This document shows positions 14,697 through 32,965 of a stretch of 33,658 nucleotides of DNA, piece by piece (positions within the stretch are counted from its first letter, which is position 1; each line of letters begins with the position of its first letter). A program made the position numbers and the translations under genes. The stretch is from Prolixibacteraceae bacterium (GTDB lineage: Bacteria; Bacteroidota; Bacteroidia; Bacteroidales; Prolixibacteraceae). The stretch spans positions 1-33,658 of the forward strand of contig JAFGGF010000122.1 of assembly GCA_016930735.1 (NCBI GenBank). The letters run 5' to 3'. Under the pieces are notes generated by a model. That model was not told the origin of the DNA. It was given only the letters and a program-made list of their open reading frames with translations, and did not search any database.

Positions 14697-16322
14697 CTAT
14701 TTTATTGTTTTTTTATAATCTTCCGGTGTATCCAGGTCCCTTAGAATTTCTTCCGAATCAACCTCCAGTTCAACTATTTCGTCCGGATTAAGTTCCATTA
14801 ACTCTCTTAATCCTGTATTTCCTGTCAAATTATTAATTTCTTTTCTGAATTTTAAATCAATCAGAACAGGATGGCCTCTTTGGCCCAGAAAGACAGGGAT
14901 AATTATCCCTCTTTGTTTTTTGTGATATTCCTTAATCAAACTATTTATTACCGATGTTTGTATCATTGGCTGGTCGCCAAGCATAACAATTACTGCATTT
15001 ACTTTAGCAGGAATCGCATTAATTCCGCATAATACAGATGAAAACATTCCTTTTTGATATTCTTTGTTTTCTACGCATTGAATTTGATATAGTTTTATCC
15101 GGGTTTCAACATTTTCACTATGGCTGCCGGTTACAACCAGCACCTTATCTGCTTCCGAATCCTTTGCTTTTCCAACAACAGTTTCTATAATGGTTTTTCC
15201 ATCATAAGGCATTAACAGTTTCTGTTGTTTCATACGTTTTGATTCGCCGGCAGCCAAAACCATACACCAAATCTCTTTCCGTGGTTTTTGATTTTTAAAA
15301 CAAATAAGCTGCGCAACAATGCTCACTGCTATTTCTTTTACTGTAACTGAATTTATATCAAGACCAACCGGAGCATACACTTTATTAAATTCCGAGTCAG
15401 TACAGGTCCCACTTGAAATCATATTTTCACGTATCAGGGCTATTTTTCGTTTACTGCCAATCATTCCAATGTAACCAGCCTCTGATTTAATACAACCCTG
15501 CAATGCTGCTGCATCTTCTCGGTGCCCTTGTGTTACAATTACTATAAACGAGCCCAAAGTAACTGGTACTTTTTCAAAACAGGTTTCAAAGTCGGATACA
15601 ACAATACCACCTGCATCGGGGAAACGTTCTTTTGTTGCAAGTTCAGGACGGTTATCAATAACTGTAACATTAAATCCTGAAAAAGCCGCAAGGTGACACA
15701 ATGCTTTCCCCACATGCCCGGCTCCGACAATAATCAAATGTGGTTCAGGATAAACCGGCTCAACAAAAAGTACCCGGCTTTTTTCCTGGTTTTCTATAAT
15801 TCCCGGTTTTTTTTGCTGAAGTATTTGTGCCATCTCTTCACATCCCAATCCATATTCAGCATAAAAATCACAAGGGATTTTTTCACCTTCAGAAAACCAA
15901 CTGCGATTAACAATAACACCACCTTCAAACAGATTAATTTGTGTAATGAGAATACCCTGTTTATGATTTTCAAGGGATTTTTTCAGTTGCAAAAAAGCAT
16001 CCAGATTCCTGGCCGGATCGGCATCAAGAAGAAATACAGCTGAACCTCCACAGATAGCTCCGGTTTTATCGTTGATTGAAGCATTGAGTTCAAACTCCTG
16101 GTACATATTGGTTTTAGTGTGAGCAACTTTCAGGGCAAGTTTTTGTGCTTCTGCCTCAAGAACTCCACCCCCCATGGTTCCCGATTTTAATCCTTCCGAA
16201 CTGAAAATTGCTGAAGAACCAGGTACCTGAGGTGTTGAACCTTTGGTTTTTATTAAAGTACCTAAAACCACATTTTTGCCTGATCCAATTTCAGCAACTA
16301 TTTTCAGGTAGATATTATTCAT
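14697..16322 (-). CDS. XdhC-family chaperone fused to a MocA-like molybdenum cofactor cytidylyltransferase
   Basis: N-terminal XdhC/CoxI (TLIKTKGSTPQVPGSSAIF...GTMGGGVLEAEA), Rossmann XdhC_C (PHLIIVGAGHVGKALCHLAAFSGFNVTVIDNRPE), then MocA/MobA-like nucleotidyltransferase (WCMVLAAGESKRMKQQKLLMPYDGKTIIE...VMLGDQPMI...GQRGHPVLI). Confidence 0.9.
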   Translation of the reverse strand: MNNIYLKIVAEIGSGKNVVLGTLIKTKGSTPQVPGSSAIFSSEGLKSGTMGGGVLEAEAQKLALKVAHTKTNMYQEFELNASINDKTGAICGGSAVFLLDADPARNLDAFLQLKKSLENHKQGILITQINLFEGGVIVNRSWFSEGEKIPCDFYAEYGLGCEEMAQILQQKKPGIIENQEKSRVLFVEPVYPEPHLIIVGAGHVGKALCHLAAFSGFNVTVIDNRPELATKERFPDAGGIVVSDFETCFEKVPVTLGSFIVIVTQGHREDAAALQGCIKSEAGYIGMIGSKRKIALIRENMISSGTCTDSEFNKVYAPVGLDINSVTVKEIAVSIVAQLICFKNQKPRKEIWCMVLAAGESKRMKQQKLLMPYDGKTIIETVVGKAKDSEADKVLVVTGSHSENVETRIKLYQIQCVENKEYQKGMFSSVLCGINAIPAKVNAVIVMLGDQPMIQTSVINSLIKEYHKKQRGIIIPVFLGQRGHPVLIDLKFRKEINNLTGNTGLRELMELNPDEIVELEVDSEEILRDLDTPEDYKKTIK

Positions 16323-16409: not shown

Positions 16410-16437
16410 AAAAAACTTCCAAATACAAGGAAGCTTT
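16410..16437 (-). terminator. Putative intrinsic terminator of the metal-uptake operon
   Basis: Minus-strand AAAGCTTCC-TTGTATTT-GGAAGTTTT: 9-bp stem including one G.U pair, then a T tract. It sits between the metal operon and the XdhC-MocA gene. Confidence 0.6.
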
Positions 16438-16507: not shown

Positions 16508-17371
16508 TTAATTATCTGAAATTTGCTTCCGGAAGATTTTTTTGAAAATCAGGGATAACATCAATACTACTCCCAGAAATAAAATAATTACAGGCGAACT
16601 GGGCACGTCCAGTTGCCATGAAAAGTACAATCCAAGGATAGTCACAACTGCACCAACCCCTAGCCCGATAAAAATCCGGGAGGACCAATGATTTGCATAA
16701 AGCGACGAAATAGAAGCAGGTATAATCAGGAACGCAAAAACCGTAAGGATTCCACCAACGCTAACAGCCTGGACAATAACCAATCCGAATGAAAAATAAA
16801 AAAGGAAGTCCCATAACCCTTTGTTTTTTACACCAGTGTCCGCTTTATGGTAATTATCAGTCAGTTTAAAAAACTTCTTCCTGAAAATAAAATGAAACGC
16901 GCCAACCAGGCTAATCACAATTGCAAGGATAGTAACCTCATGCCAACCAACCCAGAGAATTGCTCCGGTTAACATATCGTGAATATGGACATCGCCACCG
17001 GCGCTTTTATCAAGGATTATCACCGCAGCAGTAGTAGCAACAGCATAAGCGATCCCGATTAATGCTTCAAGCGGGATTTTTATTTTTTTGTTCTTTAACA
17101 AGGAAAACACAAGAGCTGCCAGTGCACAAAATATAAAAGAAAAAGTAAAAGTAAACCAGGGTTGCCCCTCATGACCATGCCCGGCAAGTGAATTTTCATT
17201 TGACTGATGAATTACCTCTGCAATAACTCCTCCAAGTGCCGCTATCTGAGCCAGAGCAATATCAATAAATATAATTTCCCTTTTCAAAACATGTATCCCA
17301 AAATACACATTAATACTAATCAACAGGATACAGGCAATAAAAGGTATGAACATAAATTCAAGTATTTCCAT
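16508..17371 (-). CDS. Metal (zinc/manganese-type) ABC transporter permease with a His-containing loop
   Basis: ABC-3 family permease: ILLISINVYFGIHVLKREIIFIDIALAQIAALGGVIAEVIHQ. SLAGHGHEGQPW insertion. Confidence 0.88.
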   Translation of the reverse strand: MEILEFMFIPFIACILLISINVYFGIHVLKREIIFIDIALAQIAALGGVIAEVIHQSNENSLAGHGHEGQPWFTFTFSFIFCALAALVFSLLKNKKIKIPLEALIGIAYAVATTAAVIILDKSAGGDVHIHDMLTGAILWVGWHEVTILAIVISLVGAFHFIFRKKFFKLTDNYHKADTGVKNKGLWDFLFYFSFGLVIVQAVSVGGILTVFAFLIIPASISSLYANHWSSRIFIGLGVGAVVTILGLYFSWQLDVPSSPVIILFLGVVLMLSLIFKKIFRKQISDN

Positions 17372-17377
17372 AAGGCA

Positions 17378-18214
17378 TCAGGATTTTAGGGTTTGTTTTC
17401 TGAATAATTTTACAAAAGCCAGGATAAAAACACTGATACCCAGCAGGCACACAATTGCAGGTCCATTCGATATATTAAAAACATACGAAATGTAAATCCC
17501 GAGAACCGATCCAACAACACCAATCACCCAGCTTCCGATAAACCTCTTTTTCCAGTTCGATGTAAAAAGGGTAATTGCAGCTGTTGGGGCTACAAGTAAA
17601 ATAAAAACCAGGAAGATCCCTGCAATAGGTACAGCCTTTACAATTACAATCCCGAAAGTAATGTAAAACACCAGTTCAAACATTCGGGTTTTTTGTATGG
17701 AAAATGGCAAACTGCCATTTCTGTTTGAATCAGAAATACCTTTGAATTGTTTCCTGAAATAAATATGTATTATACCTATTAAAGCAAAAAGTAGCGCACA
17801 ATAAATCACCTGTTTCCAGGTAACCCAGAGTATGTTTCCTGTAATGGTTTTTGTAATATAGTTTGACCCACCAGGGATTTTTTCAACCAACAGCAATGCC
17901 AGCCCCAGCCCAAGGCAATATATAATACCGATAATAGCTTCCTGTGAAATCTTCTGCTTTTGGAATTTAGTCAGTGCAAAAAAAGAAATCACAATTAACG
18001 TAAAAACATAAGAAGATATTTCAACAGAAACAGAATCTTCAGCAAAACCAAGCAAAAGGCCGATCATTGTTCCGAGAGCTGCAATTTGTGCAACCGCAAT
18101 GTCAATAAAAATAATGCCTCGCGAAAGGATATGGTTCCCGAAATATCCAAGGATTCCTGCCAGAAGAATGCTGCCCGCAATAGGAGCCGATAAAAAAATC
18201 AGATTATCAAGCAT
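17378..18214 (-). CDS. Metal ABC transporter permease (ABC-3 family)
   Basis: SILLAGILGYFGNHILSRGIIFIDIAVAQIAALGTMIGLLLG; multi-TM; paralogous to the neighbouring permease. Confidence 0.88.
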   Translation of the reverse strand: MLDNLIFLSAPIAGSILLAGILGYFGNHILSRGIIFIDIAVAQIAALGTMIGLLLGFAEDSVSVEISSYVFTLIVISFFALTKFQKQKISQEAIIGIIYCLGLGLALLLVEKIPGGSNYITKTITGNILWVTWKQVIYCALLFALIGIIHIYFRKQFKGISDSNRNGSLPFSIQKTRMFELVFYITFGIVIVKAVPIAGIFLVFILLVAPTAAITLFTSNWKKRFIGSWVIGVVGSVLGIYISYVFNISNGPAIVCLLGISVFILAFVKLFRKQTLKS

Positions 18215-18219
18215 AATTT

Positions 18220-19269
18220 TTATTTAAGTGATTCATTAATCCTGTCAATCCAGAAATCAACCAGTTGAAAATTGTCTTCCACTTCCTCAGTGCCTGCAAC
18301 AAACAACGGCAGCGACAAGGCTTTCACCCCTGTTTTTTCTTCAATCATTTCCGATGATTTTTTTTCGAAATAACTGGCAACCAGCATTAACTCTATGTTT
18401 TGGTCTTTTACAAGATTTACAATATCCTGAACGTGTTTTGCTGAAGGTGGTATTCCCGGTTTAGGCTCGATGTATCCGATAATAATCAGCCCGAATGTAT
18501 CGCTGAAATATGCCCAGTTTTTATGGTATGCAATTACTTTTTTATCTCTGAAAGGCATGGCTTTTTTTAACCATCCCCCAAGTTTTTCCTTCAGTTTCAC
18601 TCCCTCGTAGTCTCTCTCAAGAAAAGGAAACAATGTTTTATTTTCAAGTAATTTACAAAGTGTTTCTCCGCCAAACATATCAACCAACTCGTTGCCGAAC
18701 AGAGCCCGGTCAACTTTATCACAGAACGCATCGCAATTTTGTTCATAGAACGATGAATTTTCCGGGTCAACTTTCATTAATCCTATTGTAATGTTATGAG
18801 CAATGACTTTCCAGTTTAACGGACCGGTATTTATATGCGGATTCCCCATCAAATGCACATCGCCTTCGGTACGGTCTGCTTTATCAACTTTCTGAAGAAT
18901 ATTAATCCCATCCGATACGGAAACAAAACCAACTGCTCCGTCCATAATTTTTTTATTCCTGGCTTTATCAAGCAGAGTCGATGACCAAACCTCCAGGTCC
19001 ATCCCGGTAGTAATCCACATATCGGCACTTTTAAGCATCATGGCAAAACTCGGTTTTGGGGGCACAAAATGCGGGTCTTGTTCACCTGAGGCAATAAAAC
19101 TGACTTCTCCTTTATCTTTAACAATTGCCTGTACAATCGTTGCATAGTCGGAAAAGGAACAAACAATGTTTAATTTTTCTTCACCTGAATCCGAAAAACT
19201 TTTATTTGAATCACTCGCCTGTAAGCCAGTGCTGAATGCAATTAAAATAATTAACATTAACTTTTTCAT
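18220..19269 (-). CDS. Metal ABC transporter substrate-binding protein (ZnuA/TroA-like, cluster A-I)
   Basis: Signal peptide; LNIVCSFSDYATIVQAIVKDKGEVSFIASGEQDPHFVPPKPSFAMMLKSADMWITTGMDLEVW; GNPHIN; AYHKNWAYFSDTFGL; EPKPGIPPSAKHV. Confidence 0.9.
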   Translation of the reverse strand: MKKLMLIILIAFSTGLQASDSNKSFSDSGEEKLNIVCSFSDYATIVQAIVKDKGEVSFIASGEQDPHFVPPKPSFAMMLKSADMWITTGMDLEVWSSTLLDKARNKKIMDGAVGFVSVSDGINILQKVDKADRTEGDVHLMGNPHINTGPLNWKVIAHNITIGLMKVDPENSSFYEQNCDAFCDKVDRALFGNELVDMFGGETLCKLLENKTLFPFLERDYEGVKLKEKLGGWLKKAMPFRDKKVIAYHKNWAYFSDTFGLIIIGYIEPKPGIPPSAKHVQDIVNLVKDQNIELMLVASYFEKKSSEMIEEKTGVKALSLPLFVAGTEEVEDNFQLVDFWIDRINESLK

Positions 19270-19295
19270 ACTCTTATTTTTTACTTTTTTGAATT

Positions 19296-20645
19296 TTAAT
19301 ATGCTTCGTGTTTGTGTGGTCCCATCGCCCAGCTAATCTGTAATATCAGGCTATGGTCAGAAGGCAGTTTAACATCCGGCACGGGTTTCATATCAAAAAT
19401 ATCCCTTTTGTTATATTGATACTGAAGCCTGAAAAACACAAATTCGCTTTGCCAGAAATCGATATTCGCGGTAAAATCCCATTCACTTTGATTGCTGTCG
19501 TATGGAAGTTCTGAATACCCGATCCTTCCTCCCATCCAGAACCTTGCATTTAATTTATTCTCGAATGAACTATAAAAGCCCTTGCTTTTAACCGGTTGCC
19601 CGGGCATCTCGTAAACTCCATAAAAAAACTCGGTTTTCCATTCGAAGGTGCGGTATTTTTCCCTTCCTAACGGAACCCATTTATATATTAACCCAAGGCT
19701 CGAAATCCAGGAATTGTATTTCCCTTCCATATCGTTTTTACCGGTAACGCTGTTCAGGCTGAATTCAAAATAACTGTTTTTTGACAAGTCGTAATAATTT
19801 TTCCAGTGCCCGACATACAGAATCCGCCTCTTCCCTTCATCAATGAAACTTACGCCATTGCCTCCATTTATAATTGAAATATCAAGGTTGCTGGCATCTG
19901 CAAAAAGTAAACGGGGAAGTAAAAAGCTTGTGGCAATTCCGGTTCCGCTTAATCCACGGTTACTGAAATAATTCACCAGGACACTTGGCCTGTCGAATTG
20001 TGGCAGGGCATGGTCGTGGTACCTGTTTAAGGGACCAAATTCTGCATAAAAAATCCCTGCTTTCAGGTTCATATTTAACGGAAGGTTCAGCAGTTCCATA
20101 TAGGCTTCTTCAATTGAAATGCCCTCTTTTGTAACAGAAAGAAACGCCTTCCCCCTTGTAAATGGGTCTAACGGGGCAACAAAGGCTAATTCCGTTTCAC
20201 GCATAAAAAAACCATTATTCCCATAAAAAAAATCACCGGCTTCGTTTATAAAATCAAAATCTGACGAACTGCATCCGGCAAAAAAATCGCCTCCAAGGCT
20301 TATATTCGGATTCAGTCCTTGCTGGCTCCTCACGCCGCTCATAAACTTTTTAGAGATATCAGCCTTTTCCTCTTTTTCCTTTGAACTTAGCTGATTGGCT
20401 TCCTCAAGTAACTTTTTTAATTCATCTTGCTGCTCTGCATTATCGAGCCTTGCTTTCAACGACGAAATTAATTCCTCAAGCCGGGCAATATTAATTTCAT
20501 TTGATTCTTTTAACTCCTGAAGTTGTTTTTTTAAAATTGCTGTTTCAGTCTCCTGATTGCCGGAGTTAATCTTATCCTGCGCATGCAAAATATTTGAATA
20601 CAGGATAAAGCCGATCATGATTAGTAAAAAATATTTGATTTTCAT
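19296..20645 (-). CDS. Porin-like outer membrane beta-barrel protein with N-terminal coiled coil, in the metal-uptake operon
   Basis: Signal peptide; coiled-coil ETAILKKQLQELKESNEINIARLEELISSLKARL; alternating aromatic beta-strands; C-terminus ILQISWAMGPHKHEAY. Gap of 26 nt to the solute-binding protein gene. Confidence 0.7.
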   Translation of the reverse strand: MKIKYFLLIMIGFILYSNILHAQDKINSGNQETETAILKKQLQELKESNEINIARLEELISSLKARLDNAEQQDELKKLLEEANQLSSKEKEEKADISKKFMSGVRSQQGLNPNISLGGDFFAGCSSSDFDFINEAGDFFYGNNGFFMRETELAFVAPLDPFTRGKAFLSVTKEGISIEEAYMELLNLPLNMNLKAGIFYAEFGPLNRYHDHALPQFDRPSVLVNYFSNRGLSGTGIATSFLLPRLLFADASNLDISIINGGNGVSFIDEGKRRILYVGHWKNYYDLSKNSYFEFSLNSVTGKNDMEGKYNSWISSLGLIYKWVPLGREKYRTFEWKTEFFYGVYEMPGQPVKSKGFYSSFENKLNARFWMGGRIGYSELPYDSNQSEWDFTANIDFWQSEFVFFRLQYQYNKRDIFDMKPVPDVKLPSDHSLILQISWAMGPHKHEAY

Positions 20646-20673: not shown

Positions 20674-20698
20674 TTGTGGCATAATTCATATGCCACAA
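20674..20698. promoter_or_regulatory. Perfect inverted repeat TTGTGGCATA-ATTCA-TATGCCACAA upstream of the porin-like gene
   Basis: 10-bp perfect arms with a 5-nt spacer, 29 nt upstream of ATG 20645. Confidence 0.6.
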
Positions 20699-20744: not shown

Positions 20745-21113
20745 TTAAAACGAAAATGGAGGAGCCCGGAGGCTGCAATTCAGGTGATAAATGTTTTTTA
20801 CAAAATCCTCTGAAGGGATATAAATTTTCTGAACCCTGATTTGCGCCAGTAAAAATGTTAATCCTAAAAAACCAATAACAAACTGAAAAAAATGGAATAT
20901 CTGATTCAGTATAAAAATTTCAAATCCTGAGTGTTTGTGGTTTTGAAAAGGGACTCTTGTATCAGCATTTTTTTGATAGGGATGCGCATGAGATATGATA
21001 TCACCTTTAATATAATGTGAATGAAGATTTACTGTATTATTATACAATAAAAAGCATAAAGCCGGAAATACCAGATACAATAAAATTCTTTTGTTTTTCC
21101 GAAGGACTCCCAT
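20745..21113 (-). CDS. Small two-TM protein with three HxH motifs in the inter-TM segment
   Basis: TM1 ILLYLVFPALCFLLYNN; HSHYIKGDIISHAHPYQKNADTRVPFQNHKH; TM2 FHFFQFVIGFLGLTFLLA. Located immediately upstream of the metal operon on the same strand. Confidence 0.7.
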   Translation of the reverse strand: MGVLRKNKRILLYLVFPALCFLLYNNTVNLHSHYIKGDIISHAHPYQKNADTRVPFQNHKHSGFEIFILNQIFHFFQFVIGFLGLTFLLAQIRVQKIYIPSEDFVKNIYHLNCSLRAPPFSF

Positions 21114-31514: not shown

Positions 31515-32234
31515 TTAATCGTTGCCACATCTGTGTTTTTCAAATTTACGCCTCTTTAAAAAAAGGAACAGGCACAGTGTCAATTCTGAAACCACGGCTA
31601 CAGTCATAACCAATATTTCACTGGTTGAAGAAAGTTCAGGAAAGAGAAAACTGACAAAACAATCGATCAAATAACTGATTCCGGCAGAGGACACTAAAAT
31701 CCCGAGCCACTTTGGAAAATACTCAGCTTTAAAAATTAAAATGCCAAGTAAAATACAACTGATTCCGAAAAACACTCCGCTGATAAGGTAGCCGTAGGAA
31801 TGGGCATTCAGGAAAAGTAACGACAATGAATTTAACTGTTCGCCGGAAAAACTGTTGAGGTAAAAGTCGTCACCAAGGAGCAACAAGGGCAAATAATAAT
31901 TCAGCAAATTAATCCCGATTACAGTAGCCTGTGCCAACCTGAAAAATGCAGCTAAAAGGGAAATCCCCTGGTTAACCGATTTTAAAAGCAGGTAAAAAAG
32001 CAAGGCGAGCCCTACGTCGCTTATGGCCATAATCAAGTCGCTGATAAACCCAAAACGAAACAACAACTCATTTTTTGCAATTTTCTCGGCAGTAGCCATT
32101 GCATCGCCCGGGACAATAATTCCCGAACGGACAAAAAGTTCGCTGAACAACCCGGCCAAAATAACGATCAGGTACAACACACCCGCAGTCCGGGCATTGG
32201 TTTTAATAGTATTTTTTGTTTGAATAGTTTTCAT
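31515..32234 (-). CDS. DUF4386-like membrane protein
   Basis: TNARTAGVLYLIVILAGLFSELFVRSGIIVPGDAMATAEKI and multi-TM topology. Confidence 0.75.
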   Translation of the reverse strand: MKTIQTKNTIKTNARTAGVLYLIVILAGLFSELFVRSGIIVPGDAMATAEKIAKNELLFRFGFISDLIMAISDVGLALLFYLLLKSVNQGISLLAAFFRLAQATVIGINLLNYYLPLLLLGDDFYLNSFSGEQLNSLSLLFLNAHSYGYLISGVFFGISCILLGILIFKAEYFPKWLGILVSSAGISYLIDCFVSFLFPELSSTSEILVMTVAVVSELTLCLFLFLKRRKFEKHRCGND

Positions 32235-32245
32235 GGCTTTGAGTT

Positions 32246-32965
32246 CTAAAATTCTGTTTCTGTTTTTTGTATTTTACGGTATAATGTTTTTGGTTTTCCG
32301 CCCCGGATGATTAACCAAATTGCAAAGCCAACCTCTCCTAAAGTCATCGGCAGCATTAAAATCATTTCCATGGTTTTTATCAGGCTTTCAAATTCGGGAA
32401 AAAGTTGTTTGGCACTATGGATTAAGATGTAAGAAACAGCTGCAAAAACCAGCAGGATTCCCCAAAAGAGGTGGATTCTTTTTGATTTTAATACCAGAAA
32501 TCCAAGTAATAATAAATGAAACCCGAATATTATTAAACCTAAAGACCAAGTGTTTTCAAACGACTGGAAATGTGTGATTACCTGTTGATTTATTGTTTTA
32601 TCAGCAATGGCTGAATTCCCGTTTAAAACTTTCAGGATTTGAAAGAAATTAAAAATGGCAATCCCTAAAGCACCTGAATAGACGATTCTCAGCCATGCCA
32701 TGGCAGCTGAGAGTTTTCTGTTTTCATTTCTGAAAAAGTTATAAAGAGCCCAGGCAACAACCATGTCAAGGATCAGGATTAAAGTCCAACCCATAATTTC
32801 AGCTTTAAAAAGCAAGCCTGACGATTGTAAGTTATTTACTGTGATTTCAGTGTTTCCCGGTACAACAAGCAAGTTGTGGACATATCCAAATGAGAATGCT
32901 GCTGCAACAGCCATCAAGATTAGGGCGAAGCCAGCTATTAATGCAGATTTTCTTTCTGTTTTCAT
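32246..32965 (-). CDS. DUF4386-like membrane protein (diverged tandem paralogue)
   Basis: KSALIAGFALILMAVAAAFSFGYVHNLLVVPGNTEITVNNLQSSGLLFKAEIMGW, similar TM layout and identical length (239 aa) to its neighbour. Confidence 0.65.
   Translation of the reverse strand: MKTERKSALIAGFALILMAVAAAFSFGYVHNLLVVPGNTEITVNNLQSSGLLFKAEIMGWTLILILDMVVAWALYNFFRNENRKLSAAMAWLRIVYSGALGIAIFNFFQILKVLNGNSAIADKTINQQVITHFQSFENTWSLGLIIFGFHLLLLGFLVLKSKRIHLFWGILLVFAAVSYILIHSAKQLFPEFESLIKTMEMILMLPMTLGEVGFAIWLIIRGGKPKTLYRKIQKTETEF

Follow-up and report, generated by a model that had tools for sequence, protein, structure and literature searches.

An operon from a Prolixibacteraceae bacterium raises the question of how a pair of metal permeases of the ABC type might be powered when no ATPase is encoded beside them. 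An ATPase is the defining component of ABC importers. The operon resides within a stretch of 33,658 nucleotides (contig JAFGGF010000122.1, hereafter termed the window), whose nearest public relative is a Mariniphaga metagenome-assembled genome (MAG). A first-pass annotation of this DNA had described four tightly spaced minus-strand genes at positions 16508-20645, and all four open reading frames (ORFs) are found there, on that strand, with intergenic gaps of 5 to 26 bp. A fifth conserved gene, at 20745-21113 on the same strand, had been overlooked. In the order of transcription, these genes code for a small membrane protein (21113-20745), a predicted outer-membrane porin (20645-19296), a ZnuA-family (cluster A-I) solute-binding protein (SBP; 19269-18220), and two ABC-3 permeases termed A (18214-17378) and B (17371-16508). 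As the earlier annotation had claimed, the operon carries no ATPase gene: no ABC ATPase is present among the window proteins scanned with Pfam, which include nearly all minus-strand ORFs around the operon and most of the others. We moderately favor an explanation wherein metal enters without the aid of a cognate ABC ATPase, either down its own gradient or by coupling to an ion gradient.

The family assignments proposed for the SBP and the two permeases are well supported. The SBP (349 amino acids) matches PF01297 with an E value of 1.3e-40 (140 bits versus a cut-off of 29), and permeases A (278 amino acids) and B (287 amino acids) match PF00950 with E values of 8.2e-31 and 3.3e-24, respectively. 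An AlphaFold2 model of permease A (pLDDT 88.3) has the ABC-3 fold and resembles PsaC (7kyp; TM score 0.78). Chance or mis-annotation can be rejected as the source of this gene arrangement, because gene order and flanks are the same in a congener (locus L035 of genome G002), wherein the SBP and permeases are 78-81% identical to those of the window, and because the module recurs at 35 other loci.

The ATPase-less module is present in approximately 50 genomes or records, from Bacteroidota, KSB1, Krumholzibacteriota, Latescibacterota, Acidobacteriota, Binatota, Campylobacterota, and Vibrio. No cognate ATPase gene adjoins it in the 35 public loci (L040-L074) from six named phyla, some of which end at contig ends. 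The same is true for all 13 further Bacteroidota loci drawn from a sample of 396 genomes, with flanks of up to ~6 kb, and for two other records, one a Sulfurovum plasmid and the other a Vibrio campbellii replicon. The Sulfurovum record annotates parts of the module as a zinc/metal ABC transporter. The canonical ABC-3 permeases of the same genomes that we examined (L105-L121) are adjoined by an ATPase gene. Two ABC ATPases encoded in the vicinity of the module were rejected as partners: that near L175 is GldA-like (gliding motility), and that near L063 is located ~4.4 kb away on the opposite strand. An ATPase just outside the operon was rejected on the basis of the scanned window proteins and of the flanks of the relatives.

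Phylogenetic analysis places the ATPase-less members in one clade, both in a tree of permeases (support 98/96, or 99/95 after the Vibrio and Sulfurovum sequences are added) and in a separate tree of SBPs (99/93). Adjoining this clade is a set of systems (L085-L087, L091-L096, and L178-L182) that carry a small gene, porin, SBP, ATPase, and permease. The presence of the ATPase requires a single change on the tree, versus 15.7-19.8 changes in shuffles. Lack of the ATPase is an ancient feature of the clade as a whole rather than a quirk of the window genome. Our trees are midpoint-rooted, and the direction of change depends on taking canonical systems as the outgroup; most simply, the ATPase was lost once, in the common ancestor of the clade.

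The permeases themselves have also changed at the site where an ATPase would be expected to dock. In metal ABC importers, coupling helices connect the transmembrane domains with the nucleotide-binding domains (PMC11779740). On the basis of its position and of homology to PsaC/BtuC-type permeases, we take the FDxExAxxxG sequence in the cytoplasmic loop of the mid-permease to be this coupling helix. The D and A residues of this motif are conserved in 100% of 21 ATPase-bearing permeases, versus 13% and 23%, respectively, of 69 ATPase-less permeases, and other positions common to ATPase-bearing permeases are mostly retained in the ATPase-less ones. Relative to the rest of the permease, conservation of the coupling window is 1.00 for canonical permeases versus 0.26 for A, 0.48 for B, and 0.53 for single permeases, and this window is among the least conserved stretches of all three ATPase-less types. 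Both permeases of the window lack the D and A of the motif. Permease A carries GISDSNRNGSLPFSIQ (17693-17740, minus strand) instead of the canonical FDxExAxxxG, and permease B carries the similarly degenerate loop KLTDNYHKADTGVKNKG (16817-16867, minus strand). L174-L177 have lost the loop entirely, and L185 and L198 (Sulfurovum and Vibrio) have a visibly shorter one. These loci form one group in the permease tree (96/87), which includes the Vibrio campbellii replicon and Sulfurovum mangrovi and thus offers possible culturable hosts.

Relatives carry either the A and B paralogues, always in this order, or just one permease, as is the case in Acidobacteriota, Binatota, and other groups. Given that A and B constitute distinct paralogue clades in a fixed order, the heterodimeric permease suggested by the first-pass annotation is plausible. 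Some single permeases have a C-terminal extension, which is HEAT-like in the one scanned case that gave a match. The over-long examples of ~400-500 amino acids are encoded at the ATPase-less loci L062, L064, L065, L067, L074, and L165-L167; of those scanned, L062 has HEAT repeats (E value 1e-6) and L067 has no clear extra domain.

A second set of changes affects polar residues. The membrane path of MntC requires Asp47, His51, and Asp94 (PMC8487065). By alignment, the ATPase-less clade carries Gln in place of the His, a change shared with the ATPase-bearing sister clade, and Glu in place of the second Asp. Asp38 (codon at 18101-18103 on the minus strand for permease A) is present in 69 of 69 permeases of the ATPase-less clade versus 0 of 21 ATPase-bearing relatives, and His28 is near-invariant (94% versus 0%). 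Glu92 is invariant in the ATPase-less permeases and, together with Asp38 and His28, contributes to a polar signature specific to this clade. The invariance of these acidic path residues, together with that of the SBP histidines described below, indicates that the proteins are still under selection.

These findings bear on whether the module transports anything at all. Loss of both the ATPase and the coupling motif is what might be observed if the SBP and permease had been repurposed to store, sense, or deliver metal in the periplasm, with ZIP or other carriers performing import, and ZIP importers are indeed encoded by 25 of the 26 carrier genomes tested. However, the ABC-3 fold is kept, the acidic residues along the putative path are invariant, and the permeases have been conserved long-term over many phyla and duplicated into A and B. 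We therefore consider a module devoid of transport activity to be very unlikely.

A greater concern is that the permease pair might be powered by an ATPase encoded elsewhere in the genome, either a canonical ZnuC or a promiscuous ATPase of the FecE or another type. Some sugar ABC importers share a single ATPase, which offers an analogy for such an arrangement, and the earlier annotation had proposed precisely this solution. As a general rule it is disfavored by the gene content of the carriers. Among the 35 draft genomes, 16 (all MAGs) have no other true ABC-3 permease, although G486 is uncertain due to a truncated fragment. The best ATPases of these 16 score 126-194 bits against a ZnuC profile, versus 342-373 bits in genomes with canonical systems. 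Likewise, in ten near-complete genomes (98-100%; G260, G316, G064, G425, G153, G232, G138, G398, G426, and G304), the module is the only true ABC-3 system and a ZnuC-type ATPase goes undetected, with scores of 135-181 bits or no match at the limit. The same profile detects the ATPases of the sister clade at 213-244 bits. Thus, 26 carriers lack a detected ZnuC-type ATPase, and across the ATPase-less clade the presumed docking motif is eroded or deleted, with the dock lost from most members.

The matches of 150-194 bits that were examined proved to be FecE/heme-type ATPases. We rejected these as hidden partners because several adjoin FecCD permeases and because those linked to nusB do not track the clade. 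Six of the ten near-complete genomes yield no FecE-type match at an E value of 1e-28, and FecE-type relatives are also present in G115, G074, and G284, where the porin system has its own ATPase. The nusB-linked examples are solitary FecE/heme-type ABC ATPases with no permease adjoining (L183, 2500-3315, minus strand; L184, 2657-3454, plus strand), which are 45% identical and derive from two Bacteroidota genomes of different families.

Several observations nevertheless weigh against import without a cognate ATPase, and many of these favor a partner acting in trans. The search for an orphan ZnuC in the window genome did recover one canonical ZnuC (G000:C274), which has its own SBP and permease but could also serve the module. 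About half of the carrier genomes likewise hold a canonical system, solitary FecE-type ATPases are located near nusB in G064 and G398, and each genome encodes dozens of other ABC ATPases, such that an unrelated partner is possible. Furthermore, single-permease members at L065, L066, and L165 retain a partial FDPxxA..G motif, and the model of permease A still places a short helix (residues 154-166) at the coupling site. Many carriers are MAGs. In addition, the upstream regions of approximately 30 loci share no conserved palindrome with perfect arms of at least 8 bp that would support control by Zur, although weaker motifs are possible, and the prevalence of ZIP importers noted above means that most zinc might enter by another route. 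On balance, we view a trans-encoded ATPase as fairly unlikely, and continue to favor import that does not depend on one.

The remaining components of the module help define what might be transported. The coiled-coil porin-like protein of the earlier annotation (449 amino acids, with a signal peptide) has no match to a porin family in Pfam or NCBIfam. However, an AlphaFold2 model built from 29 homologues (mean pLDDT 82.5) combines an N-terminal coiled coil (residues 33-88) with a 16-strand barrel, and a Foldseek search with this model identified OprP (2o4v, E value 9.6e-12) as the best PDB match, followed by other porins. The protein shares the 16-strand barrel with OprP and OprO, yet it is only 11-15% identical to them and is linked to a metal SBP. 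Across the 29 homologues there are 27 invariant columns, including H210, H212, and H446. An R-x-H-x-H motif (R208, H210, H212) and a C-terminal GPHKHEAY motif, which ends the window protein as WAMGPHKHEAY, are conserved from Bacteroidota through Acidobacteriota. The same porin family is encoded 5′ of the SBP in the relatives with long enough sequence, regardless of whether an ATPase is present. For this reason, the tie between the porin family and metal uptake is strong, and the description of the porin as dedicated to the module is borne out, with passage of metal as its probable function.

The small gene is located 5′ of the porin gene in most loci, including those of the ATPase-bearing sister clade. 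Its product in the window (122 amino acids) has an N-terminal transmembrane helix, HxH and HAHP motifs, and a C-terminal LRAPP sequence. Two relatives approach PF11162 (DUF2946) with E values of 5.7e-4 and 1.7e-3 (21.1 and 19.6 bits, which do not reach the cut-off of 23.7), whereas the window protein itself gives no match to this family and may be considered only distantly DUF2946-like. One DUF2946 gene, that of Caulobacter, has been listed beside czrCBA, which are zinc-efflux genes activated by Zur (PMC4176598).

The SBP offers evidence with regard to the substrate. As judged by PDB sequence matches, its residues H67, H145, and H249 correspond in alignment to the zinc-type sites of YcdH/ZnuA-type structures, and these three residues, along with H139, are invariant over 28 homologues. 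The protein also has an insertion of ~40-50 amino acids between its lobes. Among the best NCBIfam matches of the SBP and permeases are AztC (4e-25) and AztB (4.5e-19) of the AztABC(D) zinc importer. The module falls far below the equivalog cut-offs (88.8 of 350 bits for AztC, 55-69 of 280 for AztB, and 27-33 of 284 for ZnuB) and is without an AztA ATPase. In addition, a ZIP zinc transporter gene is located immediately 3′ of the ATPase-less permease gene in an Acidobacteriota MAG (L066, 3273-4097, plus strand). From these sequence relationships, the transported metal is probably zinc.

A different substrate (copper, iron, manganese, nickel, or a chelate) or even export can be envisioned, given that SBP models of the manganese and iron types also match, albeit less well, and given the distant similarity of the small protein to DUF2946, a member of which is listed near zinc-efflux genes in Caulobacter. 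This alternative overlaps with our favored explanation, which concerns the energy source. Three invariant histidines at a zinc-type site, a best NCBIfam relative (AztC) that handles zinc, and the ZIP gene at L066 argue against another substrate, and the presence of a binding protein argues for import rather than export. We judge this alternative to be unlikely.

The proposal that best accommodates our data is a trans-envelope system of five parts for the uptake of a transition metal (most likely zinc), which would have been derived from an ABC importer via loss of its ATPase. The porin would admit metal through the outer membrane, the SBP would capture it in the periplasm by using three histidines, and a heterodimer of permeases A and B, both of the ABC-3 fold, would carry the metal through the inner membrane with no cognate ABC ATPase involved. 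Transport might draw on the inward metal gradient plus the membrane potential, or else on an ion gradient, and so would be secondary or facilitated yet SBP-dependent. The invariant Asp38 and Glu92 residues and the near-invariant His28 might form part of a rebuilt metal or proton path.

Each part of the module comes from a known family. It shares with ZnuABC, TroABCD, and PsaABC the SBP family, the permease family and fold, and the adjacency of SBP and permease genes, but differs by the missing ATPase, the lost coupling motif, its own porin and small protein, and an altered D-H-D triad accompanied by the clade-specific Asp38 and His28. The Bacteroidota operons with porin, SBP, ATPase, and permease genes are closer, as evident by the same porin family, a neighboring SBP clade, a small RAPP protein, and an adjacent permease branch, but these retain the ATPase and an intact FDxExA..G motif. 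TRAP and TTT transporters, which act mostly on organic acids, are SBP-dependent and not ATP-driven, as is proposed for the module, but belong to unrelated permease families. CbiMN and solitary BioY are S-components of ECF transporters that reportedly function without their ATPase; they resemble the module in that ABC-superfamily parts work, or are thought to work, minus the motor, but have an unrelated fold and neither an SBP nor a porin. ZrgABC of Vibrio (PMC9820375), which includes an ATPase of its own, is not the same system.

The open-access literature searched yielded no account of an ABC-3/porin module without an ATPase, nor of its combination of parts with a clade-wide loss of motor and dock, and there is a real chance that it represents a new transporter class. 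We give an even chance to the full version of this proposal, in which a separate class present in many phyla lost its ATPase once, shed the coupling helix, gained a heterodimer by duplication and new invariant Asp and His residues, and conducts SBP-dependent, ATP-independent transport with its own porin. If so, an ABC permease can switch its energy source, with the clade having kept the SBP and permease while losing the motor and its docking site. The annotation of many ‘metal ABC transporter’ genes would then change, and the clade would provide a natural experiment for defining the contribution of the ATPase. The porin would be a candidate for a dedicated outer-membrane zinc route besides TonB receptors.

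Other features of the locus are less distinctive. The terminator-like hairpin reported at the operon end is present (16412-16437, minus strand; nine pairs, three of them GC, followed by a T-run), yet the window has no more of these sites than shuffled sequence does (4 found versus 4.8 expected). An Rfam search returned no matches. The palindrome TTGTGGCAT-N7-ATGCCACAA at 20674-20698, between the small gene and the porin gene, was dropped as a regulator site, since it is not conserved at other loci and is absent from the congener. Beyond the hairpin are XdhC/MocA and molybdenum-hydroxylase genes. The first of these (14697-16322, minus strand) codes for a 541-amino acid protein in which an XdhC domain is fused to a MobA-like NTP transferase of the MocA type. 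It is followed by genes for a 2Fe-2S subunit and two molybdopterin-binding subunits, an order that the congener repeats 3′ of its metal operon. Farther away, at 31515-32965 on the minus strand, a tandem pair of DUF4386 membrane-protein genes adjoins a zinc-type dehydrogenase gene.

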